Below are positions 11,569 to 24,128 of a DNA stretch of 64,000 bases, in pieces. The translations under genes were made by a program, and so were the position numbers. Positions within the stretch are counted from its first letter, which is position 1; each line of letters begins with the position of its first letter. Below the pieces are notes generated by a model. It was not told where the DNA came from. It was given only the letters and a program-made list of their open reading frames with translations, and ran no database searches. Origin of the DNA: Agromyces salentinus. Its GTDB lineage: Bacteria > Actinomycetota > Actinomycetes > Actinomycetales > Microbacteriaceae. Location: positions 62,001 to 126,000 of the forward strand of contig NZ_WBIR01000010.1 of assembly GCF_009749395.1 (NCBI RefSeq). Reading direction: 5' to 3'.

Positions 11569-11937
11569 TCAGGCGGCGACCTCGGGCTCGGCCTCGATCG
11601 CGACCTCGATGGCCCCATCGACGATCCGGGACGGATACGTGCGCAGCGAGAGTGCCGGGTCGGTGAAGCACTCCCCGGTCGCGAGGTCGTAGACCTCCTT
11701 GTGCAGGGGTGAGGCGATGGTCGGACGCTCTCCTCGGGAGCCCGTGATGCCACGGGCCATCACCGGTGCGCCCGTGTGCGGGTCCAGGTGGTCGACGGCG
11801 TAGACCTCGTCGGCCGACACGCGCACGAGCGCCACCTGCCGGCCGCCCAGCAACGCGACCTCGCCCCAGCCCGGTTCGAGGTCGCGGAGGCCGCAGGCGC
11901 GCATCCAGAGTGTGGTCGATTCGATCGTCATGCTCAT
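11569..11937 (-). CDS. nirD: Nitrite reductase [NAD(P)H] small subunit
   Basis: NirD is the accessory subunit of the cytoplasmic NADH-dependent siroheme nitrite reductase that makes ammonium. The Rieske-like fold is visible (EVYAVDHLDPHTGAPVMARG, then PTIASPLHKEVYDLATGEC), but the Cys-His pairs that bind a [2Fe-2S] cluster are absent, as is normal for NirD. The 122-residue size fits. The ATG at 11935-11937 has GAGGAG 6 nt upstream. It is divergent from nirB rather than downstream of it, and shares its control region with nirB. Confidence 0.92.
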   Translation of the reverse strand: MSMTIESTTLWMRACGLRDLEPGWGEVALLGGRQVALVRVSADEVYAVDHLDPHTGAPVMARGITGSRGERPTIASPLHKEVYDLATGECFTDPALSLRTYPSRIVDGAIEVAIEAEPEVAA

Positions 11938-11981
11938 GGCGGGCTCCTCTTCTCTGCGTGCTCCGACGCTACGAGCACGGT

Positions 11982-12020
11982 GTTTCCTCCTCGGTACGGT
12001 TCGTGTTTCCCCGACGTGAA
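11982..12020 (-). promoter_or_regulatory. GlnR-like box in front of nirD
   Basis: Read toward nirD the half-sites are TTCAC-n6-GAAAC-n6-CGTAC-n7-GAAAC (plus-strand positions 12016, 12005, 11994 and 11982). The actinobacterial GlnR consensus is gTnAC-n6-GaAAC repeated. The first two half-sites fit well and the third poorly, with one spacer a base longer. The box ends about 45 bp from the nirD start. Confidence 0.6.
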
Positions 12021-12069
12021 ACCCCCCTCACAGCGCCGGTACCACCGCGTGCGCTCGGGGACAAGAGCA

Positions 12070-12096
12070 GTTACCCCGACGTAACAGGGCCGAAAC
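12070..12096 (+). promoter_or_regulatory. GlnR-like box in front of nirB
   Basis: GTTAC (12070-12074), GTAAC (12081-12085) and GAAAC (12092-12096) are spaced by exactly 6 bp, giving an 11-bp periodicity. GTTAC-n6-GTAAC matches the GlnR a/b half-site pair. The box ends 42 bp before the nirB ATG. Confidence 0.7.
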
Positions 12097-12138
12097 GGCC
12101 CGGTCGTACGCTCGCAGCAATCGAGCCACGGAGGACCC

Positions 12139-14748
12139 ATGACCGAGACCGACCGCGCCCGCGACGACGTCCGCAACATCGTCATCGTCGGCGGTGGCCC
12201 AGCGGCCCACCGACTCGCCGACAGCCTGCACGCACGCGACGCCGAGCGCACCGTCCACGTCACCGTCGTCGGCGACGAACCGCACCGGCCCTACGACCGC
12301 GTCGCGCTCAGCACGCGGCTCGCCGACGGCGACGCCGACCTGACGCTGCATCCGACCTCCATGTGGGACGAGGGGCACGTTCGCCTGATCACGGGCGAGC
12401 GCGTCACCTCCATCGACCGAACGAGCCGCACGGCGACCACGTCGGCCGGCACCGAGCTGCACTGGGACGACCTGGTCCTCGCGACCGGGTCGAGCGCACC
12501 CGTGCCCGACATCCCGGGCTCCGACAGCGCTCGCGTCTACCGCACGATCGAGGACGTCGACAACCTCGTCTCCGAGGCGCGGGAACTCGCCCGGCACCAC
12601 GGCCGGCCGGCCAGGGTGGTGGTGGCGGGCGGCGGCCTGCTGGGCCTCGAGGCCGCAGGAGGACTGGCGAAGCTCGGCGCGCACGTCGCGGTGGTGCACT
12701 CGGGCGGCTGGCTCATGTCGGCGCAGCTCGACGAAGGCGCCGGACGTGCACTCGGACGCATCATCTCGGGACAGGGCATCGGGCTCCACCTCGGTGCTCG
12801 CCCCGCGGCCATCCGCGTCGAGGACGACGTCGTCGTGGCGGTCGAGCTCACGAACGAGCGCGTCATCGAGGCGGATCTGGTGGTCTTCGCGATCGGCATC
12901 AGCCCTCGGGACGAACTCGCCCGCGACCTCGGGCTCGAACTCGGCCCGCGCGGCGGCGTCGCGATCGACACGAGCTGCGCGTCGTCGGCGGCGAACATCT
13001 GGGCGATCGGCGAGGTCGCGAGCTTCGAGGGGCGCTGCACCGGCCTCGTGGCGCCGGCGAACGCCATGGCCGAGGTGGTCGCGGATCGCATCCTCGGCGG
13101 TGCCGCGGAGTTCACGAGCGTCGACGACGCCACCAAGCTCAAGCTGTCGGGCGTCGACGTGGCGAGCTTCGGCGACGCCCTCGCGCGCACCGAGCAGGCC
13201 CTCGAGATCGTCTACGCCGACCCCGCCCGCGGGCTCTACCAGAAGCTCGTCATGACCGACGATGCGAAGACCCTGCTGGGCGGCATCTTCGTCGGGGACG
13301 CCTCCCCCTACGCGTCGCTGCGCCCCATGCTCGGCATGCAGCTCTCGTCCGAGCCCGCCGCCTACCTCTCGGCTTCGGGCATGGAGGCGCCCGCGGGCGA
13401 CGAGCTCCCGGCATCCGCCCTGGTCTGCGCGTGCAACAACGTGGCGGCGGGCACGATCCGCGACGCCGTGAACGGCGATGAGCACACCGAGGGCTGCAGC
13501 GAACTCGGCGCGCTGAAGGCGTGCACCCGGGCCGGCACCCAGTGCGGGTCGTGCGTGCCGCTCGTGAAGAAGATCATGGAGACCGAGCTCACCAAGGCGG
13601 GCTTCACGCCGTCGCGGGCCCTCTGCGAGCATTTCGAGCTCTCGCGCCAGGAGCTGTTCGAGTCGATCCGCGTGCTCGAGCTCACCTCGTTCGACGACAT
13701 CGTCGCACGGCTCGGCACGGGTCGCGGATGCGACGTCTGCAAGCCGGTCGTCGGCTCGATCCTGGCGACGCAGCTCGGGTCGTACATCCTCGACGGCGGC
13801 CGAGGCGGCCTCCAGGACACCAACGACCGCGCCATGGCGAACATGCAGAAGGACGGCACCTACTCGGTGGTCCCCCGCATCCCGGCGGGCGAGATCACGC
13901 CCGAGAAGCTGGCCGTCATCGCGCAGGTCGCGACCGACTACGGCCTCTACACGAAGATCACCGGCGGCCAGCGCATCGACCTGTTCGGCGCCCGCCTCGA
14001 CCAGCTTCCCGAGATCTGGAAGCGACTCGTCGATGCCGGCTTCGAGTCGGGCCAGGCCTACGGCAAGGCGCTGCGCAACGTCAAGAGCTGCGTCGGTTCC
14101 ACCTGGTGCCGGTTCGGCGTGCAGGACTCGGTCGCGATGGCCGTGCAGCTCGAGCTCCGCTACCGGGGCCTGCGGTCGCCGCACAAGCTCAAGTTCGGCG
14201 TCTCGGGGTGTGCGCGCGAATGCGCCGAAGCCAGGGGCAAGGACGTCGGCGTCATCGCGACCGACCAGGGCTGGAACATGTACGTGGGGGGCAACGGCGG
14301 CTTCCAGCCGGCGCACGCGCAACTGCTCGCGAGCGACCTCGACGACGAGACGCTCCTGAAGTACATCGACCGCTACATCATGTACTACGTGCGAACCGCC
14401 GACCGGCTCCAGCGGACGGCACGCTGGATCGAGGACATCGAGGGCGGCCTCGACCACGTGCGCGATGTCGTCGTGCACGACTCGCTGGGCCTCGCGGACG
14501 AGCTGGAGGCGGCCGTCGACCGGCACGTCGACTCGTACGAGGACGAGTGGGCGGCGACCCTCGCCGACCCCGAGCGCCTGCGCCGCTTCCGCTCGTTCGT
14601 CAACGCGCCGAACGTCCCCGACCCCTCGATCGCGCGGGTCCCGGACCAGCGCGGCCAGATGCGGCCGGCCACCGCCGAGGAGCGCGATCGCGGCGAGGCG
14701 GTCCTCGTCGCCGGCACGACGATCCCGGTCCGCGGGGTGGACGCATGA
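12139..14748 (+). CDS. nirB: Nitrite reductase [NAD(P)H] large subunit
   Basis: Catalyses the six-electron reduction of nitrite to ammonium with NAD(P)H. Domains in order over 869 residues: FAD-binding (VIVGGGPAAHRL), NAD-binding (VVVAGGGLLGLEAAGGLAK), BFD-like [2Fe-2S] domain near residue 430 (LVCACNN ... CTRAGTQCGSC), and the siroheme/[4Fe-4S] domain with CVGSTWC near residue 650 and CARECAE near 690. A Shine-Dalgarno GGAGG precedes the ATG. The stop overlaps the cobA start as ATGA, so siroheme synthesis is translationally tied to the apo-enzyme. Confidence 0.96.
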   Translation: MTETDRARDDVRNIVIVGGGPAAHRLADSLHARDAERTVHVTVVGDEPHRPYDRVALSTRLADGDADLTLHPTSMWDEGHVRLITGERVTSIDRTSRTATTSAGTELHWDDLVLATGSSAPVPDIPGSDSARVYRTIEDVDNLVSEARELARHHGRPARVVVAGGGLLGLEAAGGLAKLGAHVAVVHSGGWLMSAQLDEGAGRALGRIISGQGIGLHLGARPAAIRVEDDVVVAVELTNERVIEADLVVFAIGISPRDELARDLGLELGPRGGVAIDTSCASSAANIWAIGEVASFEGRCTGLVAPANAMAEVVADRILGGAAEFTSVDDATKLKLSGVDVASFGDALARTEQALEIVYADPARGLYQKLVMTDDAKTLLGGIFVGDASPYASLRPMLGMQLSSEPAAYLSASGMEAPAGDELPASALVCACNNVAAGTIRDAVNGDEHTEGCSELGALKACTRAGTQCGSCVPLVKKIMETELTKAGFTPSRALCEHFELSRQELFESIRVLELTSFDDIVARLGTGRGCDVCKPVVGSILATQLGSYILDGGRGGLQDTNDRAMANMQKDGTYSVVPRIPAGEITPEKLAVIAQVATDYGLYTKITGGQRIDLFGARLDQLPEIWKRLVDAGFESGQAYGKALRNVKSCVGSTWCRFGVQDSVAMAVQLELRYRGLRSPHKLKFGVSGCARECAEARGKDVGVIATDQGWNMYVGGNGGFQPAHAQLLASDLDDETLLKYIDRYIMYYVRTADRLQRTARWIEDIEGGLDHVRDVVVHDSLGLADELEAAVDRHVDSYEDEWAATLADPERLRRFRSFVNAPNVPDPSIARVPDQRGQMRPATAEERDRGEAVLVAGTTIPVRGVDA

Positions 14749-15521
14749 GCGGCAGCGTCACGCTGGTCGGCGGGGGCCCGGGCCAGGAGGACCTGCTGAC
14801 GGTCGCCGCCGTCCGGGCACTCCTGGACGCGGAGGTCGTGCTCTACGACCGCCTGGCGCCCCACGATCGACTGGCGGAGCTCGCGCCGGGCGCCGTGCTC
14901 GTCGACGTCGGCAAGCGTCCGGGGCACCATGCCATCCCGCAGGCCGAGATCGAGGCGCTGCTGGTCGAGCACGCCCTCGCGGGCAGGCGGGTCGTGCGCC
15001 TCAAGGGCGGCGACCCCTACGTGCTCGGCCGCGGCGGCGAGGAGGTGCTCGCATGCCATCGGGCCGGCGTGCCCGTCGAGGTCGTCCCGGGCGTCACGAG
15101 CGCCATCTCGGTGCCGGGCGCTGCGGGCATCCCGCTCACGCACCGCGGCATCAGCCACCTGTTCACCGTCGTCTCCGGCCACGCCCCGCTCACTCCGGAC
15201 GAGCTCGGGCATCTCGCCGGGCTCGGCGGCACGATCGTCGTGCTCATGGGCGTGAACACGCTGCCGTCGCTCACGGCCGGCCTCGCACGTGCCGGCATGG
15301 CGGAGCGGATGCCGGTCGCGATCATCGAACGCGGGTACTCGGCCGAGCAGCGCACGACCATCGGCGAACTCGCCGACATCGTCACGACCGCAGGGCGTGC
15401 CCGCGTGGCCTCCCCCGCCGTCGTCGTCATCGGCGAGGTGGTGCGCCTCGCGCACGACGGCGATGCGAGCGCGGCCGAGCTCATGGACCGCGCAGCCGGC
15501 TTCGCGGCGGTGGCCGGGTGA
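14745..15521 (+). CDS. cobA: Uroporphyrinogen-III C-methyltransferase (SUMT)
   Basis: Uses two S-adenosylmethionines to convert uroporphyrinogen III to precorrin-2, the entry to siroheme. The 258-residue protein shows VTLVGGGPGQEDLLTV, the DVGKRPGHH block, VRLKGGDPYVLGRGGEE and VPGVTSAISVPGAAGIPLTHR, all SUMT motifs. It is a stand-alone CobA without a CysG-type dehydrogenase/chelatase domain. It starts within the nirB stop (ATGA) and ends within the next start (GTGA). Confidence 0.95.
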   Translation: MSGSVTLVGGGPGQEDLLTVAAVRALLDAEVVLYDRLAPHDRLAELAPGAVLVDVGKRPGHHAIPQAEIEALLVEHALAGRRVVRLKGGDPYVLGRGGEEVLACHRAGVPVEVVPGVTSAISVPGAAGIPLTHRGISHLFTVVSGHAPLTPDELGHLAGLGGTIVVLMGVNTLPSLTAGLARAGMAERMPVAIIERGYSAEQRTTIGELADIVTTAGRARVASPAVVVIGEVVRLAHDGDASAAELMDRAAGFAAVAG

Positions 15522-16648
15522 GCGACCTCCTCGAGTGCGCACCCGGGTTCCGCGCCGACCAGCTCGCGGGCTTCCGCATCGGCGTGACGAGCGACCGTCG
15601 CTCGGCCGACCTCATCGACGCCCTCGCCCGCCGGGGCGCGACGGTCGTGCATGCGCCGACGCTGCGCATGACGAACGCGCTCTCCGACGACCCGGTCATC
15701 GCCGACACCCGGGCGATCATCGACGCCCGCCCCGACGTGCTGCTCGCGACGACCGCGTACGGCGTGCGCCGCTGGTTCGAGGTCGCGGATGCCGCGGGGC
15801 TCGGCGAGGACCTCCTCGACGCGCTCGCCGACACGGCGATCCTCGTGCGCGGGCCGAAGGCGCGCGGGGGCATCCGCGCAGCCGGGCTCAACGACGTCGG
15901 CATGAGCGCGCAGGAGACCACGGAATCGCTCATCGACGAGGTGCTCGCGAACTACCCTTCCGGGCTCACGGTCGCCGTGCAGCTGCACGGGTTCCTCGAG
16001 CCCTCCCAGCTCGAACGCCTGGACGCGTCCCATGCTCGCGTGCTCACGGTCGCGCCGTACCGCTGGGTCGAGATCGACGAGTCCGATGACCGCGTCGAGC
16101 GGCTCATCGAGTCGGCCTGCACGGGCGGGCTCGACGCCATCACCTTCACGAGCGCGCCGGCCGTGCACGCCCTGTTCGGTGCAGCCGAGGCCATGGGGCG
16201 CTACGACGACCTCGTCGACGCGATGCGCGGCCCCGTCGTCGCCGCCGCGGTCGGACCCGTCACCGCGCTGCCGCTCGCCGCCGCGGGGATCGAGCCGATC
16301 CAGCCCGACCGCTACCGCATGGGCGCGCTCATCCGGCTCGTGTGCGAGCACCTCGAGAACGATCGCGTCGTGCGGCTCGAGACGAGGCACGGCACGCTCG
16401 CGCTGCGCGGGTCGATCGTCGACGTCGCCGATCGGCGGGTCTCGCTCGCCCCGGTCGCCCTGATGATCCTGCGGGCGCTCGTCCAGGCCCGCGGTTCGGT
16501 GGTGGCGCGCGATCGCCTGGCCGCGGGCCTGCCCGGGACGAGCGACGAGCATGCGCTCGAGGTCGCGCTGAGCCGGCTCCGCCAGACGCTCGCCGTGCCG
16601 GGCCTCATCGCGACGGTCGTCAAGCGTGGGTACCGCATCGACGTGTGA
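15518..16648 (+). CDS. Uroporphyrinogen-III synthase (HemD)-like domain fused to an OmpR-type winged helix
   Basis: Residues 1 to about 280 match the two-lobed HemD fold (LAGFRIGVTSDRRSADLIDAL, AITFTSAPAVHALF, VAAAVGPVTALPLAAAGI). Residues from about 290 to 376 form a Trans_reg_C winged helix (RRVSLAPVALMILRALVQ ... VVKRGYRIDV). The same architecture occurs in mycobacterial Rv0260c, beside a nitrate transporter. It may act as an enzyme, or as a regulator that uses a HemD fold to sense tetrapyrrole or uroporphyrinogen. The GTG start at 15518 overlaps the cobA stop (GTGA). I favour a regulator of this cluster, unproven. Confidence 0.88.
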   Translation: MSDLLECAPGFRADQLAGFRIGVTSDRRSADLIDALARRGATVVHAPTLRMTNALSDDPVIADTRAIIDARPDVLLATTAYGVRRWFEVADAAGLGEDLLDALADTAILVRGPKARGGIRAAGLNDVGMSAQETTESLIDEVLANYPSGLTVAVQLHGFLEPSQLERLDASHARVLTVAPYRWVEIDESDDRVERLIESACTGGLDAITFTSAPAVHALFGAAEAMGRYDDLVDAMRGPVVAAAVGPVTALPLAAAGIEPIQPDRYRMGALIRLVCEHLENDRVVRLETRHGTLALRGSIVDVADRRVSLAPVALMILRALVQARGSVVARDRLAAGLPGTSDEHALEVALSRLRQTLAVPGLIATVVKRGYRIDV

Positions 16649-16784
16649 GCATCGCCTCACATCCGTCACCGGCACCGGTGAGCAGGTGGAGACGCAGGGT
16701 TTACGACCGGACCGATCCGCAGAAACACGACGTCAATAGCTTCGAGTCGAAGGATCCACTCGTGATCGAACCCCGGAGGCACCG

Positions 16785-18185
16785 ATGACCCAGACCGTGA
16801 GCACCGCTCCCGCCGCGACATCCGCATCGCCCGATACGACGGCCGCGGCGCCCGAGCTGCGCAGGCGGCCGGGCCGGTGGATCGACGGATGGGACGCCGA
16901 GAACACCGAGCAGTGGGAGTCGCAGGGCCGGGCGATCGCGCGCCGGAACCTGAACTGGTCGATCTTCGCGGAGTTCCTCGGATTCGTGGTGTGGCAGCTC
17001 TGGAGCGTCGTCGCCGTCGCCCTCCCCGCGGCCGGCTTCAACCTGACCACGGGCGAGATCTTCTGGCTCATCTCGATCCCGAGCCTCGTCGGCGCGACGC
17101 TGCGGATCCCCTATTCGTTCCTCGTGCCGAAGTTCGGCGGACGCAACTGGACCATCATCTCCGCCGGCCTCCTGCTCGCGCCGACCATCGCGATGGTCGT
17201 CTGCGTCTCCAACCCCGACACGCCCTTCCCGGTCCTGCTCGGGGCCGCGGCGCTCGCGGGCTTCGGCGGCGGCAACTTCGCCAGCTCCATGTCGAACATC
17301 ACCTTCTTCTACCCCCAGCGCGAGAAGGGCTGGGCGCTCGGCCTGAACGCGGCCGGCGGCAACCTCGGCGCCGCCGTGGCCCAGTTCGTCGTGCCGATCG
17401 CCATCACGATCGGCGCCGCTGCCACCCTCAACCTCCCGGTCGCCGGCTGGATCTGGATCCCGTTCATCCTCGTCGCGATGTTCGGCGCCGCCCGCTACAT
17501 GGACAACCTCTCCAACGCGAAGGCGGACTTCAGCGGATCGGCCGCCGCGCTGAAGGAACCCCACCTCTGGCTGCTCTCCCTGCTCTACATCGGCACGTTC
17601 GGCTCGTTCATCGGCTTCGCGAGCGTCTTCCCCAAGCTCATCGCCGACCAGTTCCCGGAGTTCTCCGCGATCGCCATCGGCGGTGCCGCGGTGCCGCTCG
17701 CGTTCCTGGGTGCCCTGGTGGGCTCGCTCGCCCGGCCCTACGGCGGACGGCTCTCCGACCGGTTCGGCGGCGCGCGGATCACGATGGTCGCCTTCGCCGC
17801 GATGGCGCTCATCACGATCGCCGTGCTGGTCACCCTGCCGCTCGGCAACTTCTGGCTCTTCCTCGGCCTCTTCCTGCTGCTCTTCGCCTCGGCGGGCATC
17901 GGGAACGGGTCCACCTACCGCATGGTGCCGATCGTGTTCGCGGTTCGCGGCGGCGGCACGGGCGACGTCTCGACCCAGCGCAAGGCCGCAGCGGCACTGG
18001 GCCTCATCTCCGCCATCGGCGCCTACGGCGGCTTCCTCATCCCGCAGGCGCTGAACCTCTCGTTCCAGTCCACCGGCGGCTACGGCGCCGCCTTCGCAGG
18101 GTTCATCGCGGCCTACGTGCTGCTGCTCGTGCTCACCTGGGCCGTGTACGTGCGGTCCGACAAGCTCAGCGCCCACAAGATCTGA
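16785..18185 (+). CDS. narK: NarK-type nitrate/nitrite MFS transporter
   Basis: Predicted inner-membrane importer of nitrate (or nitrate/nitrite exchanger) of the NNP family. It has 466 residues with about 12 membrane segments after a Thr/Ala-rich cytoplasmic tail of about 45 residues. The family Gly-rich motif is present as LAGFGGGNFASSMSN and its second copy as ASAGIGNGSTYRMVP, with LNAAGGNLGAA between them. A Shine-Dalgarno CGGAGG precedes the ATG. It is followed after 12 bp by the nitrate reductase gene, so import and reduction are co-transcribed. Confidence 0.94.
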   Translation: MTQTVSTAPAATSASPDTTAAAPELRRRPGRWIDGWDAENTEQWESQGRAIARRNLNWSIFAEFLGFVVWQLWSVVAVALPAAGFNLTTGEIFWLISIPSLVGATLRIPYSFLVPKFGGRNWTIISAGLLLAPTIAMVVCVSNPDTPFPVLLGAAALAGFGGGNFASSMSNITFFYPQREKGWALGLNAAGGNLGAAVAQFVVPIAITIGAAATLNLPVAGWIWIPFILVAMFGAARYMDNLSNAKADFSGSAAALKEPHLWLLSLLYIGTFGSFIGFASVFPKLIADQFPEFSAIAIGGAAVPLAFLGALVGSLARPYGGRLSDRFGGARITMVAFAAMALITIAVLVTLPLGNFWLFLGLFLLLFASAGIGNGSTYRMVPIVFAVRGGGTGDVSTQRKAAAALGLISAIGAYGGFLIPQALNLSFQSTGGYGAAFAGFIAAYVLLLVLTWAVYVRSDKLSAHKI

Positions 18186-18197
18186 ATCGAGACCAGC

Positions 18198-20333
18198 TTG
18201 AGCCCTTCCGCCGACACCCATTGCCCGTACTGCGCGTTGCAGTGCGCGATGACGCTGACCCCGACGGATGCCGCAGCGGATGCCGCAACCACACCGGTGA
18301 CCGTCACGGGGCGCGACTTCCCCACCAATCGGGGCGGTCTCTGCAAGAAGGGCTGGACGTCGGCGGAACTGCTCCGGGCCCCGTCCCGCCTCGGCGCCCC
18401 GCTCGTGCGGGGCGCCGACGGCGTGCTCCACGAGGCGAGCTGGGACGACGCGCTCGACCTCGTGGCGGCATCACTCCGCGGCATCCGCTCGGAGCACGGT
18501 GCCGACGCGGTCGGCGTCTTCGGCGGCGGCGGCCTCACGAACGAGAAGGCGTACCTGCTCGGCAAGTTCGCGAGGTTGGCGCTCGGCACCAGCCGCATCG
18601 ACTACAACGGCCGGTACTGCATGTCCTCGGCCGCGGCGGCCGGGAACCGGGCATTCGGGGTCGACCGGGGCCTGCCCTTCCCGCTCGAGGACCTCGACGG
18701 GGCGGAGACGGTGCTGCTGCTCGGCACGAACGTCGCCGAGACGATGCCGCCGTTCATCGGCCACCTCGCCGGAGCGCAGGCCGCCGGCGGCCTCGTGGTC
18801 GTCGACCCCCGCCGCACGGCGACCGCGCGACTGACGGAGGACGGACGAGGGTTGCACGTCCAGCCCGTCCCCGGCACCGACCTCCCCCTGCTCCTGGGCC
18901 TGATCCACATCGTCATCGCCGAACGACTCGTCGACCTCGACTACGTCGACTCCCGGACCGTGGGGTTCGAGCGCGTGCGGCGCAGCGTCGCCGCGTGGTG
19001 GCCCGAGCGCGTGCAGTCGGTCACGGGCGTCGCCGCGCTCACGCTGAAGCGGCTCGCGCGGCGGCTCGCGTCCGGCCGCGGCACCTACATCCTCACCGGC
19101 CGGGGCGTCGAGCAGCACGTCGACGGCACCGACACCGCCACGGCGGCGATCAACCTCGCACTCCTGCTCGGCCTCCCGGGCCGGGTCGGCAGCGGGTACG
19201 GCACCCTCACCGGGCAGGGCAACGGCCAGGGCGGCCGGGAGCACGGCCAGAAGTGCGACCAGCTCCCGGGATACCGCAAGATCACCGACCCCGAGGCGCG
19301 CGCCCACGTGGCGCGGGTGTGGGGCGTGGACCCGGAGGCCATCCCCGGGCCCGGCGTACCGGCGGTCGAGCTGCTGAAGATGCTCGGTGCGCCGGGCGGC
19401 GTGCGGGCGCTCATGGTGCACGGCTCCAACCTCGTGGTCAGCTCGCCCAACGTCCTCGACGTGCGCGCCGGGCTCGAACGGCTCGACCTGCTCGTCGTGT
19501 GCGACTTCTTCCTCTCCGAGACGGCCGCACTGGCCGACGTCGTGCTGCCCATCACCCAGTGGGCCGAGGAGGAGGGCACGATGACCTCGCTCGAGGGCCG
19601 CGTCATCCGGCGGCGCCGTGCCATCACGCCGCCCTCCGGCGTGCGCGACGAGCTCTGGATCCTGCACGAGCTGGCCGAGCGCCTCGGGTGCACGGCCGCC
19701 TTCGACACCGATCCGGAAACCGTCTTCGAGGAACTGCGCCTCGCCTCCGAGGGCGGCATCGCCGACTACTCGGGCATCGACTACGCGATGCTCGACCGCG
19801 GCGAGGCGGCCCACTGGCCCTACCCGCGCGGCGGCACCGGAACGCCTCGCCTCTTCGCCGAACGATTCGCGCACCCCGACGGACTCGCACGGCTCGTCCC
19901 GGTCGCCGTGCGCGAGACGGCTCGCCCCGCCCCGATCGGCGCCGAGATCACCCTCATCACGGGGCGGCTCCTCGAGCACTACCAGAGCGGTGCACAGACC
20001 CGGCGGGTTCCCGAACTCCTCGAGGCCCGTCCCGAGGCGATCGCGACGCTGCATCCCGCGACCGGGCTGCGTCTCGGCATCGACGACGACGACGAGGTCG
20101 AACTCGCCAACCATCGCGGCGTCGTGCGCTGCCGTGCCCGGCTGACCCCCGACATCCGACCCGATGCGGTGTTCCTGCCCTTCCACTACGGCGACGACCA
20201 GGCGGCGAACCTGCTCACCTCCGACGCCGTCGACCCGATCTCGGCGATGCCCGAGTTCAAGACCAGCGTCGTCGGCATCCGCCGCATCGCCGCCGCTTCA
20301 CTGCGCAGCGCAGAGACCGGAGTGCCCGCATGA
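18198..20333 (+). CDS. Assimilatory nitrate reductase catalytic subunit (molybdopterin, [4Fe-4S])
   Basis: Reduces nitrate to nitrite in the cytoplasm with a bis-MGD cofactor. The N-terminal cluster ligands are Cys9, Cys12, Cys16 and Cys49 (HCPYCALQC ... GGLCKKG), typical of NasA/NarB. The Mo-domain (LGTNVAETMPPF, YGTLTGQGNGQGGREHGQK) and a C-terminal dinucleotide-binding beta-barrel (about 590-700) follow. The only plausible start is TTG at 18198, 12 bp after narK. The 711-residue length fits NasA without a C-terminal BFD domain, and that domain is instead on the next gene. The stop overlaps the next start (ATGA). Confidence 0.93.
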   Translation: MSPSADTHCPYCALQCAMTLTPTDAAADAATTPVTVTGRDFPTNRGGLCKKGWTSAELLRAPSRLGAPLVRGADGVLHEASWDDALDLVAASLRGIRSEHGADAVGVFGGGGLTNEKAYLLGKFARLALGTSRIDYNGRYCMSSAAAAGNRAFGVDRGLPFPLEDLDGAETVLLLGTNVAETMPPFIGHLAGAQAAGGLVVVDPRRTATARLTEDGRGLHVQPVPGTDLPLLLGLIHIVIAERLVDLDYVDSRTVGFERVRRSVAAWWPERVQSVTGVAALTLKRLARRLASGRGTYILTGRGVEQHVDGTDTATAAINLALLLGLPGRVGSGYGTLTGQGNGQGGREHGQKCDQLPGYRKITDPEARAHVARVWGVDPEAIPGPGVPAVELLKMLGAPGGVRALMVHGSNLVVSSPNVLDVRAGLERLDLLVVCDFFLSETAALADVVLPITQWAEEEGTMTSLEGRVIRRRRAITPPSGVRDELWILHELAERLGCTAAFDTDPETVFEELRLASEGGIADYSGIDYAMLDRGEAAHWPYPRGGTGTPRLFAERFAHPDGLARLVPVAVRETARPAPIGAEITLITGRLLEHYQSGAQTRRVPELLEARPEAIATLHPATGLRLGIDDDDEVELANHRGVVRCRARLTPDIRPDAVFLPFHYGDDQAANLLTSDAVDPISAMPEFKTSVVGIRRIAAASLRSAETGVPA

Positions 20334-21937
20334 GCCCCTTGAAGGTCGTCCTCGTCGGCTACGGTCCGGTCGGCGCCCGATTCGTCGAGGAGCTGCTGCC
20401 CGGCGTGCGGAGCGGAGCCGTCGCGCTCACCGTGCTCTCCGGCGAACCCGTCGAGGCCTACAACCGGGTCCTCGTCGCCGAGTACGCGGTCGGCAACACG
20501 GACCTGGACTCGATGTTCATCGGGGACCGCGAATCGGCCGAGGAGGCCGGCGCCCGCGTCCTCTCCGGCGTCGACGTCGTCGGCATCGATCGAGCTGCGC
20601 GCACCGTGAGGCTCAGCACCGGCGAGTCCCTGGCGTACGACCGGCTCGTGCTCGCCACGGGCGCACGGGCGAACGTCCCGACGCTCGACGGCGTCGAGCG
20701 CAACCGCCGGGACCTCGCATCGCTGGAGAAGTACGGCCGCAGCCTCATCGCCCGCGATGACGACCTGCCGGCGGGCATCACCGCGTTGCGCGACCTCGCG
20801 GACGCCGAACGGGTCCTGGAGGCGGTGCAGGGCCGCAAGCGCATCATCGTCCTCGGCGCGGGCGTGCTCGGCCTCGAGCTGGCACTCGCCGCGGCCCACG
20901 CCGGCGCACAGGTGTGCGTCGTGCACCACGGCCCGCACCCGATGCCCCGCAACCTCGATCGCGGCGGCGGCCAGGTCCTGAGGTCGGCGCTGCGACGCAC
21001 CGGCATCCAGGTCATCGCGCACAGCCGCGCCGAGGCCGTCGCCTTCCACACCGACGACGCCGGCGAGCGCCGCTTCGACATGCTCGTGACCGCCGACGGC
21101 AAGCAGATCAGGGGCGACCTGCTCGTACTCTCCTGCGGGGTCAGCCCGCGCACCGAATTGGCCGTCCTCGCCGGCCTGCGCACCGCATCGGGCATCGTCG
21201 TGCACCCGACGCTCGCCTCCTGGAGCGACCCGGCCGTCTTCGCCATCGGCGACTGCGCGCAGGTCGTCGAGCGCACCGAGGAACTGGCCGGCCAGCGCAC
21301 GCTGCCAGGCGCGCCGTCCGGGCTCATCGCGCCCGGATGGCGCCAGGCCGCCTGGCTCGCCGGCACCTTCCTCGATGAGGCCGTCGAACGGCCGACCACG
21401 GTCGCGCCTCCCGTCGAGCGCGAGCCGCTCGTGATGCTGAAGGCCGAGCACATCGACGTCGTCGCCGTCGGCGACATCTCGGGCGATCCGTTCGACGACG
21501 ACGCCCTCCACCCGCGGCGGCGCATCGCCCAATGGGCCGATCCCGAGCACCTGAGGTACGTCAAGATGGTCACCGAGGACGGCGTCCTGACGGGCTTCGT
21601 GAGCGTCGGGATGCCGCGCACGGCGGCCGAGCTGACCCTGCTGTTCGAACGCGGCGGCGAGCTTCCGGCCGATCGGTCCCTGCTCCTGCGCTTCGACGGG
21701 CCCGACTACGACCCGGCCGCCGACGCGGACGCGTTCTCGCCGGCGACGACCGTCTGCTGGTGCAACGCCGTCACCGTCGGCCGGATCGAGGAGTCCGCCG
21801 CCTGCGGGAACACGACCGTCGAGGGTGTCGGTCGAGACACCCGAGCGGGCACCGGGTGCGGCGGATGCCGCGGACGCATCGCCGACGTGCTCGCGCGGGT
21901 CGGCGACCCCGACGGGGAGCCGACGCTCACCGTGTGA
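20330..21937 (+). CDS. FAD/NAD(P)-dependent oxidoreductase with C-terminal BFD [2Fe-2S] domain (NasB-like electron donor)
   Basis: Likely passes electrons from NAD(P)H to the adjoining nitrate reductase. FAD-binding VLVGYGPVGARFVEELLPG at the N-terminus, NAD-binding IIVLGAGVLGLELALAAAH at about residues 180-200, and IGDCAQVV before the dimer region are typical of the NirB/NasB reductase half. The C-terminal Fer2_BFD domain has Cys pairs at about 476/478 (VCWCN) and 509/512 (GCGGC). It has 535 residues, and the ATG overlaps the nitrate reductase stop. It has no siroheme domain, so it is not a second nitrite reductase. Confidence 0.9.
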   Translation: MSPLKVVLVGYGPVGARFVEELLPGVRSGAVALTVLSGEPVEAYNRVLVAEYAVGNTDLDSMFIGDRESAEEAGARVLSGVDVVGIDRAARTVRLSTGESLAYDRLVLATGARANVPTLDGVERNRRDLASLEKYGRSLIARDDDLPAGITALRDLADAERVLEAVQGRKRIIVLGAGVLGLELALAAAHAGAQVCVVHHGPHPMPRNLDRGGGQVLRSALRRTGIQVIAHSRAEAVAFHTDDAGERRFDMLVTADGKQIRGDLLVLSCGVSPRTELAVLAGLRTASGIVVHPTLASWSDPAVFAIGDCAQVVERTEELAGQRTLPGAPSGLIAPGWRQAAWLAGTFLDEAVERPTTVAPPVEREPLVMLKAEHIDVVAVGDISGDPFDDDALHPRRRIAQWADPEHLRYVKMVTEDGVLTGFVSVGMPRTAAELTLLFERGGELPADRSLLLRFDGPDYDPAADADAFSPATTVCWCNAVTVGRIEESAACGNTTVEGVGRDTRAGTGCGGCRGRIADVLARVGDPDGEPTLTV

Positions 21938-21952
21938 GGCGCACCCGGATGC

Positions 21953-22714
21953 TCAGGCGGACCGCAGTCGGTCGGCCGCCACGGCCGCGTACCGATCGAG
22001 GACCACGTCGACGAGGCCCTGCGGGACCGGGCGGCCGGCCGCGATGAGCGGTTCGGCGACGACCTCGGCGCCGGCGGCGAGCACCGAGTCGTAGAAGGCG
22101 CCCGGCGCGAGCAGGTACGCCGCGACGATGATGCGGGTGCCCGGGTGCACCTCGCGGATCATCTCGATCGCGTCGGGCAGCCGCGGAATGGCCGCCGCGA
22201 TGAACCCGACGGTCACCGAACGGCCCAGGTGGTGGCCGAGGCGCCGCGCGGTCTCGAAGCACTCGCGCACGGCCCGGGGGTCGTTGGACCCGGCGGCCGC
22301 GAGCAGCACCTGGTCGCCGGGCTCGAGACCGGCCTCCGCGAGGCGGTCGGCGAGGGCGCCGACGATGCGGTCGTCGGGGCCGAGCTCCGCGGCCAGTCGA
22401 CCGGCGGCGCCGATGCGCTCCAGGCCGAACGACAGGCCCGTGCGCACGTGATAGCCGGCCGAGAGCGTCAGCGGCACGATCACGCTGTCGGCATCGGCCG
22501 CGGCGGCGACGGCGGCGGCGACATCCGCGGTGCTCGCGTCGACGAAGCTGATGGCGACGTCCAACCCGGCGGCCGACTCGACCACGCGGTCGACCAGTCG
22601 CAGGACCGCCTCGCGATTCGCCGAGGACGGGACGCCGTGCGTCACGGCGACCAGTCGCACCGGGGAACCTTCGACGACCTCGGATGGGAGGTCAGCGCCA
22701 CTCGACCCTGGCAT
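21953..22714 (-). CDS. CbiX-type sirohydrochlorin chelatase
   Basis: Inserts Fe(II) (or Co(II)) into sirohydrochlorin, the last step of siroheme synthesis. Two CbiX-like halves are present: THGVPSSANREAV ... VIVPLTLSAGYHV and LAAAGSNDPRAV ... IIVAAYLLAPGAFYD. The 253-residue length fits an actinobacterial two-domain CbiX. The gene is on the minus strand, convergent with the nitrate reductase operon, but is preceded by a strong GlnR-like box, which ties it to nitrogen control. No separate precorrin-2 dehydrogenase is visible in the window. Confidence 0.88.
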   Translation of the reverse strand: MPGSSGADLPSEVVEGSPVRLVAVTHGVPSSANREAVLRLVDRVVESAAGLDVAISFVDASTADVAAAVAAAADADSVIVPLTLSAGYHVRTGLSFGLERIGAAGRLAAELGPDDRIVGALADRLAEAGLEPGDQVLLAAAGSNDPRAVRECFETARRLGHHLGRSVTVGFIAAAIPRLPDAIEMIREVHPGTRIIVAAYLLAPGAFYDSVLAAGAEVVAEPLIAAGRPVPQGLVDVVLDRYAAVAADRLRSA

Positions 22715-22751
22715 GGTGCAACCCGCTCTTCCCGGCGGGTCTCAGCCGCCG

Positions 22752-22811
22752 GTTTCGACGTTATGCACGGCGTGTTTCCACATCGGCACCCGCCTGTTTC
22801 CGGGACGTGAA
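22752..22811 (-). promoter_or_regulatory. Extended GlnR-like box (six half-sites) in front of the CbiX gene
   Basis: Read toward cbiX the half-sites are TTCAC, GAAAC, GTGCC, GAAAC, TGCAT and GAAAC, each separated by exactly 6 bp (plus-strand positions 22807, 22796, 22785, 22774, 22763 and 22752). This is the GlnR arrangement gTnAC-n6-GaAAC carried through three repeats, with all three b-sites perfect. It ends 37 bp before the start codon. Confidence 0.75.
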
Positions 22812-22840
22812 GAACAGCTCACGTGGCCCGGCGGAGGGCC

Positions 22841-23530
22841 TCAGCCGTCGAGCAGTTCGGGCCGCACGCGACGGGTGCGCTCCAGCTGCTGCTCGCGACG
22901 CCACGCGGCGACGGCGCCGTGGTTGCCGGAGAGCAGCACGGGCGGGACCTCGAGGTCGCGCCACACCGACGGCTTGGTATAGCTCGGATACTCGAGCAGG
23001 CCGTCTTCGTGCGACTCCTCGACGAGGCTCTCGGGGTTGCCCACGACGCCGGGCACCAGGCGGCCCGCGGCCTCGATCATCGCCATGACGGCCACCTCGC
23101 CGCCGTTCAGCACGTAGTCGCCGAGGCTGATCGCACGCACGCGCATGCGCGTAGCGTAGTGGTCGGAGACCCGCTGGTCGATGCCCTCGTAGCGCCCGCA
23201 GGCGAAGACGAGGTGCTGCTCGGCCCCGAGCTCGCGCGCCACGGCCTGGGTGAACGGCTCACCCGCCGGCGAGGGGACGACGAGCAGGGCTTCGGATGCC
23301 GCGGGGCCGACGATCGAGTCGATCGCCTCGCCCCACGGCTCCGGCTTCATGACCATGCCGGCTCCCCCGCCGTACGGGGTGTCGTCGACCGTGCGGTGAC
23401 GGTCATGAGTGAACGCGCGCAGATCGTGCGCCACGACGTCGATGATGCCCGCCTGCCTGGCCTTGCCGAGCAGCGAGATGTCGAGGACCGAGAAGAACTC
23501 GGGGAAGATCGTGACGATGTCGATGCGCAC
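22841..23530 (-). CDS. trmD: tRNA (guanine-N1)-methyltransferase (m1G37)
   Basis: Methylates G37 next to the anticodon to prevent +1 frameshifting. The SPOUT trefoil-knot fold is indicated by [60 protein letters not shown] and [23 protein letters not shown] at 23528-23530 is the family start (229 residues) with GAGG upstream; the open frame extending to 23590 enters rimM. Part of the rpsP-khpA-rimM-trmD operon. Confidence 0.95.
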
Positions 23531-23537
23531 GCGTGCC

Positions 23538-24128
23538 TCAGTCGCCCGTCGTGTCGGACGCGGCATCCGGTTCGTCGGACTCACCGTCATCGGCGACGTC
23601 CTCGAAGAGGCCGGCCGGCGGCGTGACCCGGACGGTGCCGGCGGCGAGGTCGACCTCGGGAACGATCGCCTGGACGAACGGCACCATGACCTCGCGGTCG
23701 GCGGCGCGGACGATCAGGAGGTCCTGAGCGGGGAAGTGGTCGACGCGGACGACCTCGCCGACCTTCTCGCCGTCGCGGACGACGGCGAGGCCGACGAGCT
23801 GGTGGTCGTACCACGCGTCGGGTTCGGACTCCTCCTGGTCGACGTTCTCGACCCAGAGGATCGCCTTCAGGAGGCCCTCGGCCGCCGTCCGGTCGTCGAC
23901 GCCCTCGAAGAAGCCGACGGGGATCTGGTTGTACCAGCGCAGTTCGCGGAGCACGAGGTGCTTGCCGTGCCACGGCGACGAGGCCGGCACCTGCAGCGAG
24001 AACTCGGCGCCCGGCACGAACCGGCGCTCGGGGTCGTCGGTGTAGAGCTCGAGCTTGATGGCTCCCTTGAGGCCGTGCGCCTTGGTGAGGCGACCGACCC
24101 GGAGCTGGGTTCTGGGGGCGTCGGACAC
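23538..24128 (-). CDS. rimM: 16S rRNA processing protein RimM
   Basis: Assists maturation of the 30S head domain by binding S19. [25 protein letters not shown] opens the RimM N-domain, and the PRC-barrel half holds [12 protein letters not shown] and [16 protein letters not shown] at 24126-24128 lies one base after the khpA stop and gives 196 residues. An ATG at 24173 would overlap khpA by 44 bp and is less likely. The acidic tail ([13 protein letters not shown]) is variable in the family. Confidence 0.93.

Follow-up and report, generated by a model that had tools for sequence, protein, structure and literature searches.

The locus considered here raises the question of whether a gene thought to complete siroheme, the cofactor of nitrite reductase, is placed under nitrogen control through its own promoter, and by which regulators such a promoter would be read. 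The gene, cbiX, lies in the window (the whole stretch of DNA analysed, 64,000 nucleotides), which is part of contig C40 in the 4.23-Mb genome of a soil actinobacterium of the genus Agromyces. The reading preferred here, at a probability of roughly 80%, is that the cbiX promoter comprises a GlnR box and a −10 element, with an upstream GTGAG acting as an NnaR half-site and so giving joint control by GlnR and NnaR. Within this explanation the binding of the regulators, their activating effect, the position of the start site and what GTGAG does are all inferred from sequence, and the part played by GTGAG is the weakest step.

The cbiX locus and its product

cbiX (21953-22714, minus strand) encodes a sirohydrochlorin chelatase-like protein of 253 aa, in which the Pfam CbiX domain is found in two stretches (E 5.7e-17; PF01903 at 62.4 bits against a cut-off of 22). 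NCBIfam yields nickelochelatase models alone, far under their cut-offs, and the product has no match among PDB sequences, and so its metal has to be taken from context, where insertion of iron to complete siroheme is predicted. Agromyces proteins make up 12 of its 14 named relatives, the closest being from A. terreus at 81%.

cbiX stands, in convergent orientation, at the end of a cluster for nitrate assimilation. This runs from nirD, the small subunit gene (11569-11937, minus strand; an ORF with Pfam Rieske_2, E 1.2e-32), and the divergent nirB, encoding the nitrite reductase large subunit (12139-14748, plus strand; Pfam NIR_SIR, Fer2_BFD and Pyr_redox_2), through a cobA-like uroporphyrinogen methyltransferase gene (14742-15521; TP_methylase, E 4e-43), an NnaR-like regulator gene (15518-16648; HEM4, E 5.4e-33, and Trans_reg_C, E 3.8e-9), the nitrate/nitrite transporter gene narK (16785-18185; NCBIfam NarU, E 1.5e-105, and NarK-family, E 8.7e-87, both below cut-off) and a nasC-type assimilatory nitrate reductase gene (18198-20333; NCBIfam AssmNtatRedNasC, E 1.1e-212, below cut-off) to an FAD/BFD oxidoreductase gene (20330-21937; Pfam Pyr_redox_2 and Fer2_BFD) convergent with cbiX, all from nirB onwards on the plus strand. 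The cluster regulator has the NnaR-type architecture, a HemD domain fused to a winged-helix DNA-binding domain. A plasmid origin was considered and rejected, with no match among 72,556 plasmid records.

For comparison across the genus, a CbiX match was found in 58 of 60 Agromyces genomes and the best 53 were kept as orthologues (E up to about 2e-75), leaving out five genomes with lower-scoring paralogues alone (G017, G026, G033, G034 and G042) and two without a match (G011 and G055). The upstream neighbour of cbiX on the same strand is trmD (22841-23590, minus strand; NCBIfam TrmD above cut-off), and a text pattern places the trmD C-terminus just upstream of cbiX in 50 of the 53 orthologue loci, while TrmD homology is found at all 53 and in Leifsonia.

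A probable GlnR box in front of cbiX

Downward from 22822 on the minus strand, the trmD-cbiX gap reads GTGAG-n6-TTCAC-n6-GAAAC-n6-GTGCC-n6-GAAAC-n10-TAACGT-CGAAACC. A first-pass annotation had seen in it a GlnR box of six half-sites, and the six 5-mers are indeed present with exact 6-bp spacers from 22811 to 22752 (TTCAC-n6-GAAAC-n6-GTGCC-n6-GAAAC-n6-TGCAT-n6-GAAAC); it missed the −10 element TAACGT, which overlaps the supposed third a-site, and a conserved GTGAG at 22822-22818. Conservation in the genus delimits a putative GlnR box at 22774-22811 (minus strand), made up of a1 TTCAC (22811-22807), b1 GAAAC (22800-22796), a2 GTGCC (22789-22785) and b2 GAAAC (22778-22774).

When the consensus was set at its best-scoring position in the upstream DNA of the 53 orthologues and each site then counted, a1 was TTCAC in all 53, b1 was GAAAC in 52 and GTAAC in one (G041), and b2 was GAAAC in 46 and GTAAC in seven, making GWAAC in every case. 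The base after b1 and after b2 is A throughout (53/53), giving GWAACA, which fits the mycobacterial GnAACA. In a2, GTGCC recurs in only eight of the 53 and the essential A is absent from all of them. The essential adenines, taken as A(C/T)-n9-AC, are accordingly present in pair 1 in 53/53 and in pair 2 in 0/53, and for pair 3 in 25/53 including this genome. The a1-b1 pair TTCAC-n6-GAAAC meets gTnAc-n6-GaAAc, its first letter being T rather than the weak g, and the second pair does so partly, GTGCC being without the A. In contrast to a1, b1, b2 and the −10 element, the 28 bp upstream of GTGAG hold no common motif by eye.

The box has a candidate reader. The genome encodes a GlnR orthologue (C37:64539-65276), which matches chains of solved GlnR-type structures with an E of about 5e-72; among these, 4o1h is entered as GlnR, and 8hig and 8hih are entered as regulators only; GlnR is found in 60 of 60 Agromyces genomes at 74-100% identity. 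Three genomes (G010, G036 and G041, 99-100% complete) are without NnaR, narK and a close nirB and still keep a1, b1, b2 and the −10 element at cbiX, so that the constant reader of the box is most likely GlnR.

Outside Agromyces, trmD-cbiX promoters of the form TTCAT-n6-GAAAC-n17-GAAAC-n10-TAGTTT occur in Leifsonia sp. Leaf264 and in two genomes of one other genus of the family, and none of these three has GTGAG in the upstream slot. One of these genomes (G084, from another genus of the family) has two cbiX genes, and the promoter stands at the trmD-linked copy only. There the CbiX genes flank trmD (L238, L183), one near nirB after a nirD-like region and the other after trmD with the GlnR-type promoter, and so nitrate cluster and trmD locus adjoin outside Agromyces too. 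A second CbiX gene is present in our own genome as well (C36; L211:2185-4994), directly before a gene of the sulfite/nitrite-reductase family. No GlnR-type promoter was found in the 6 kb read at this paralogue, the best candidate having 4 mismatches, as would suit a genome in which one chelatase is under nitrogen control and the other is kept apart from it.

The −10 element and the supposed third pair

Ten bp after b2 lies the −10 element TAACGT (22758-22763, minus strand), and TANNNT stands at this spacing in 53/53 orthologues and also at glnA, nirD and narK. The third GAAAC (22752-22756, minus strand) falls between this element and the predicted +1 at about 22751, and does not behave as a GlnR site. 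It is GAAAC in 20 of the 53, and the base that follows is C in 28 and G in 25, never A; the five nearest relatives in a TrmD plus CbiX tree have GAAAT or GATAC in its place. TGCAT, the supposed third a-site, is likewise found in 20/53 and overlaps the −10 box. On this pattern of conservation pair 3 is core promoter, and pairs 1 and 2 are the GlnR box. The earlier count of six half-sites is therefore not borne out, its third pair being the −10 box and the start region, and neither is the “unusually cooperative” binding expected of three pairs, since one of these is core promoter and a2 is without its essential A in all 53 orthologues. That all b-sites are perfect holds for this genome, where all three are GAAAC; across the orthologues it holds far better for b1 and b2 (52 and 46 of 53 exact) than for the third (20).

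The leaders of cbiX look rich in stem-loops, and a leader hairpin was considered and rejected: folding 50 nt from the start in the 53 orthologues gave a mean z of −0.45, with 7/53 below −1.5.

Rarity of the pattern and sister promoters

The earlier suggestion that similar arrays at many unrelated sites would speak against the box was followed up by a genome scan. GAAAC-n17-GAAAC has five matches in the genome, where the base composition of the window predicts about 1.2, and a reversed-pattern control has none. Two of the five fall at cbiX, and the others lie singly upstream of genes for glutamine synthetase, a solute-binding protein and an ammonium transporter, and so the box is not refuted. 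The match before the solute-binding-protein gene (L001 1501-1527, C19) is a lone one, sharing TGCATAACG with cbiX in a position shifted by two bases, probably by chance. The fuller TNAC-n6-GWAAC-n17/18-GWAAC-n10-TANNNT is found three times in 4.23 Mb, at glnA, nirD and cbiX (about 0.0002 expected, control 0), and a two-pair GlnR pattern with at most 3 mismatches at five places (glnA with 0, cbiX with 2, amtB and two others with 3; control 0).

If GTGAG is included, as GTGAG-N39/40-GWAAC-N10-TANNNT, three matches again result, at nirD, narK and cbiX only (about 0.035 expected, control 0). In 199 genomes of the family, four of them Agromyces, this pattern gives 54 matches in 40 genomes against 6 for the control, and still 44 against 6 when the 10 matches of the four Agromyces genomes are set aside. 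Among 29 family loci that were read, 24 have a nirB, narK, nirD, cbiX or cobA homologue within 3 kb and five have none. The claim of a GlnR box before cbiX is sustained by its presence in all 53 genus orthologues and, with TTCAT as first site, in all three trmD-linked promoters read in other genomes of the family, by the very rare pattern it shares with glnA and nirD and by the presence of GlnR in 60 of 60 Agromyces genomes; the same conservation, rarity and GlnR presence support the proposed link between nitrogen control and siroheme supply.

The promoters of the cluster itself were compared at the best-scoring 30 nirB and 30 narK loci, drawn from 60 genomes with a nirB match and 51 with a narK match, and among the rest 10 nirB and 9 narK upstream regions were read. 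The nirD promoter (11966-12031, minus strand) carries an array like that of cbiX, GTGAG-n6-TTCAC-n6-GAAAC-n18-GAAAC-n10-TAGCGT, and in the best 30 of the 60 nirB loci its GTGAG is present in 30/30, whether or not GTGAG itself serves to set the position, and TTCAC in 28/30. Between nirB and nirD the best 30 loci point to a palindrome CGCAC-n17-GTGAG (12027-12053, minus strand) as a probable full NnaR operator, the left half there being CGCAC in 22, CTCAC in three and a near variant in five. The narK promoter (16656-16742, plus strand) reads CTCAC-n17-GTGAG-n6-GAGAC-n6-TTTAC-n17-GAAAC-n10-TAGCTT, and CTCAC-n17-GTGAG, with GTGAG as its right half, is found in 30/30 of the best 30 of 51 loci; the GAAAC and −10 box in that comparison are present by construction, as the loci were positioned by searching for them.

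Other promoters of this kind are built somewhat differently. At nirB the order is GTTAC-n6-GTAAC-n6-GAAAC-n10-TACGCT (12070-12112, plus strand), with two b-like sites 11 bp apart, and similar strings are seen by eye, uncounted, in several relatives. An amtB-like ammonium-transporter gene (L003 about 1430-1560, C39) has a tandem GlnR box, but its last b-site is not followed by TANNNT at the 10-bp spacing, a point against the preferred reading; GAAAC and TTTAC sites also lie farther upstream there, out of the 11-bp phase.

The upstream GTGAG

GTGAG (22818-22822, minus strand) precedes a1 by 11 bp and b2 by 44 bp, in the register it has at nirD and narK, and is present in 39/53 orthologues, a count that does not depend on using GTGAG to set the position. 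It is found in 36 of the 37 genomes whose NnaR is 70% identical or more, against 3 of the 16 others, a strong association by count. Of the genomes concerned, however, G036 and G041 are sisters, G009 has lost GTGAG and keeps NnaR, and in G006 and G010 GTGAG persists although no close NnaR is present; one genome scored as having no NnaR (G050) is 77% complete. The coupled loss of GTGAG and NnaR is kept as a mere hint because the tree shows few independent events, and for that reason, and with exceptions in both directions, GTGAG is called a probable NnaR half-site.

Its left partner is not seen at cbiX. CTCAC or CGCAC is found in 0/53 orthologues at the narK spacing, no single offset between −26 and −18 has it in more than 2/53, and so the full NnaR palindrome ctCACa/c-(16N)-t/gGTGag is represented by its right half alone. 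In the more distant members of the genus GTGAG is exact in 5/10 nirB and 1/9 narK upstream regions, and this fading weakens the NnaR part of the explanation. The narK genes of three genomes (G003, G002 and G048; L148-L150), where NnaR is 42% identical, are preceded by GTGAC-n6-GTGAC-n6-TTTAC-n17-GAAAC-n10-TAGCGT, and the upstream half-site may there have drifted along with the regulator.

A proposed activation pathway and its alternatives

Under nitrogen limitation GlnR would occupy the tandem box, with its strong a1-b1 pair, strong b2 and degenerate a2, at about −60 to −23. The box would stand in for a −35 element and recruit RNA polymerase to TAACGT (22763-22758), with transcription predicted to start near 22751 and to give a leader of about 37 nt. 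GTGAG, some 70 bp before the start and in step with the 11-bp register, would be the right half of an NnaR-type operator, from which slot NnaR may add the input of the nitrate cluster as at nirD and narK. Joint control of the nirD and narK kind would have siroheme chelation induced alongside the siroheme-dependent nitrite reductase, the cbiX product completing siroheme for NirB. cbiX would then be a new member of the GlnR regulon, and probably of a GlnR and NnaR regulon.

Three other accounts of the same DNA have to be weighed against this pathway. If the box were truly one of six half-sites, three GlnR dimers would lie side by side with the third over the start region. The exact spacing, the perfect third GAAAC and the fit of pair 3 to AT-n9-AC, here and in 25/53, would all suit that arrangement, but an a-site and a b-site each kept in 20/53, a GAAAC never followed by A and the loss of this GAAAC in all five nearest relatives make it very unlikely, and a dimer over the invariant −10 box would be expected to block rather than activate. 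Just as unlikely is a different OmpR-family regulator with a near-identical motif, above all MtrA, as the main reader. The genome does have an MtrA orthologue (2gwr, E 2.1e-98). MtrA is expected to have a broader target set, whereas the exact pattern is limited to glnA, nirD and cbiX, all of them nitrogen or nitrogen-cofactor genes. In favour of MtrA, its motif and that of GlnR are nearly identical and it binds the mycobacterial nirB, as described in PMC6277429.

A more serious contender, at somewhat over one chance in three, leaves the GlnR part intact and takes GTGAG for one more half-site of the GlnR type or, in certain genomes, simply for the trmD stop region. In its favour, GTGAG keeps to the 11-bp pitch of GlnR sites, 10/53 genomes have a trmD stop codon overlapping it and cbiX shows no left NnaR half. 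Against it, GTGAG is kept in most genomes with the trmD stop elsewhere, none is found in the 60 bp upstream of this genome's glnA box or of its amtB box, and in the best 30 narK loci and 25/30 nirB-nirD regions it forms the right half of a palindrome. The NnaR half-site is retained in the preferred reading. A further step, doubtful as it stands, would have a single NnaR protomer on the cbiX half-operator, in helical register with the GlnR array, forming a mixed row of activators; through its HemD domain, which is tetrapyrrole-synthase-like, NnaR might sense siroheme or a precursor and so gate cbiX together with the reductase that uses its product. If true, this would be a cofactor-matching loop superimposed on nitrogen control.

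What the preferred reading would mean is that the last step of siroheme synthesis has a promoter of its own that makes it a direct part of the nitrogen regulon. The 65-bp pattern has only three matches in the 4.2-Mb genome, and these are the nitrate-assimilation promoters nirD, narK and cbiX. How NnaR cooperates with GlnR, and whether its HemD domain senses a tetrapyrrole, become testable on short, well-aligned natural promoters, some from genomes that have lost NnaR yet keep the GlnR box.

Comparison with known systems

The class of promoter is a known one, and cbiX as a direct member of it with half an NnaR site was not found in PMC3087709, PMC3662644 and PMC6277429, whose main texts do not mention cbiX, siroheme or a chelatase; these come from a limited literature search, and no claim that the membership is unpublished is made. 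Tandem two-pair GlnR boxes, with gTnAc 6 bp before GaAAc, are described for Streptomyces amtB and glnA in the main text of PMC3087709. The cbiX box resembles these in having two a/b pairs, an 11-bp pitch, GAAAC b-sites and an OmpR-family GlnR in the genome, and differs from them in serving a siroheme chelatase-like gene, in its a1 TTCAC and in an a2 without the conserved A. The M. smegmatis GlnR motif Gn2AC-n6-GnAACA, with its AC-n9-AC, comes from PMC3662644, the main text of which gives nirB, nnaR and narK3 as GlnR targets. The cbiX a1-b1 pair fits AC-n9-AC and both its b-sites read GAAACA, in contrast to which there are two tandem b-sites and not one motif per site, and a1 starts with T and not G.

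Closest in design are the joint NnaR-GlnR promoters of M. smegmatis nirB, narK and trHbN, where, in the account of PMC6277429, an NnaR motif ctCACa/c-(16N)-t/gGTGag adjoins the GlnR motif and the start site lies downstream of the GlnR box. The Agromyces narK and nirB-nirD palindromes are one base shorter (15N against 16N), and cbiX has the right half alone. The order of NnaR motif, GlnR box and (in Agromyces, predicted) start site is the same in both, NnaR half-sites of the CTCAC/GTGAG type stand next to a GlnR box at a fixed spacing, and this likeness takes in the Agromyces nirB/nirD and narK promoters as well.
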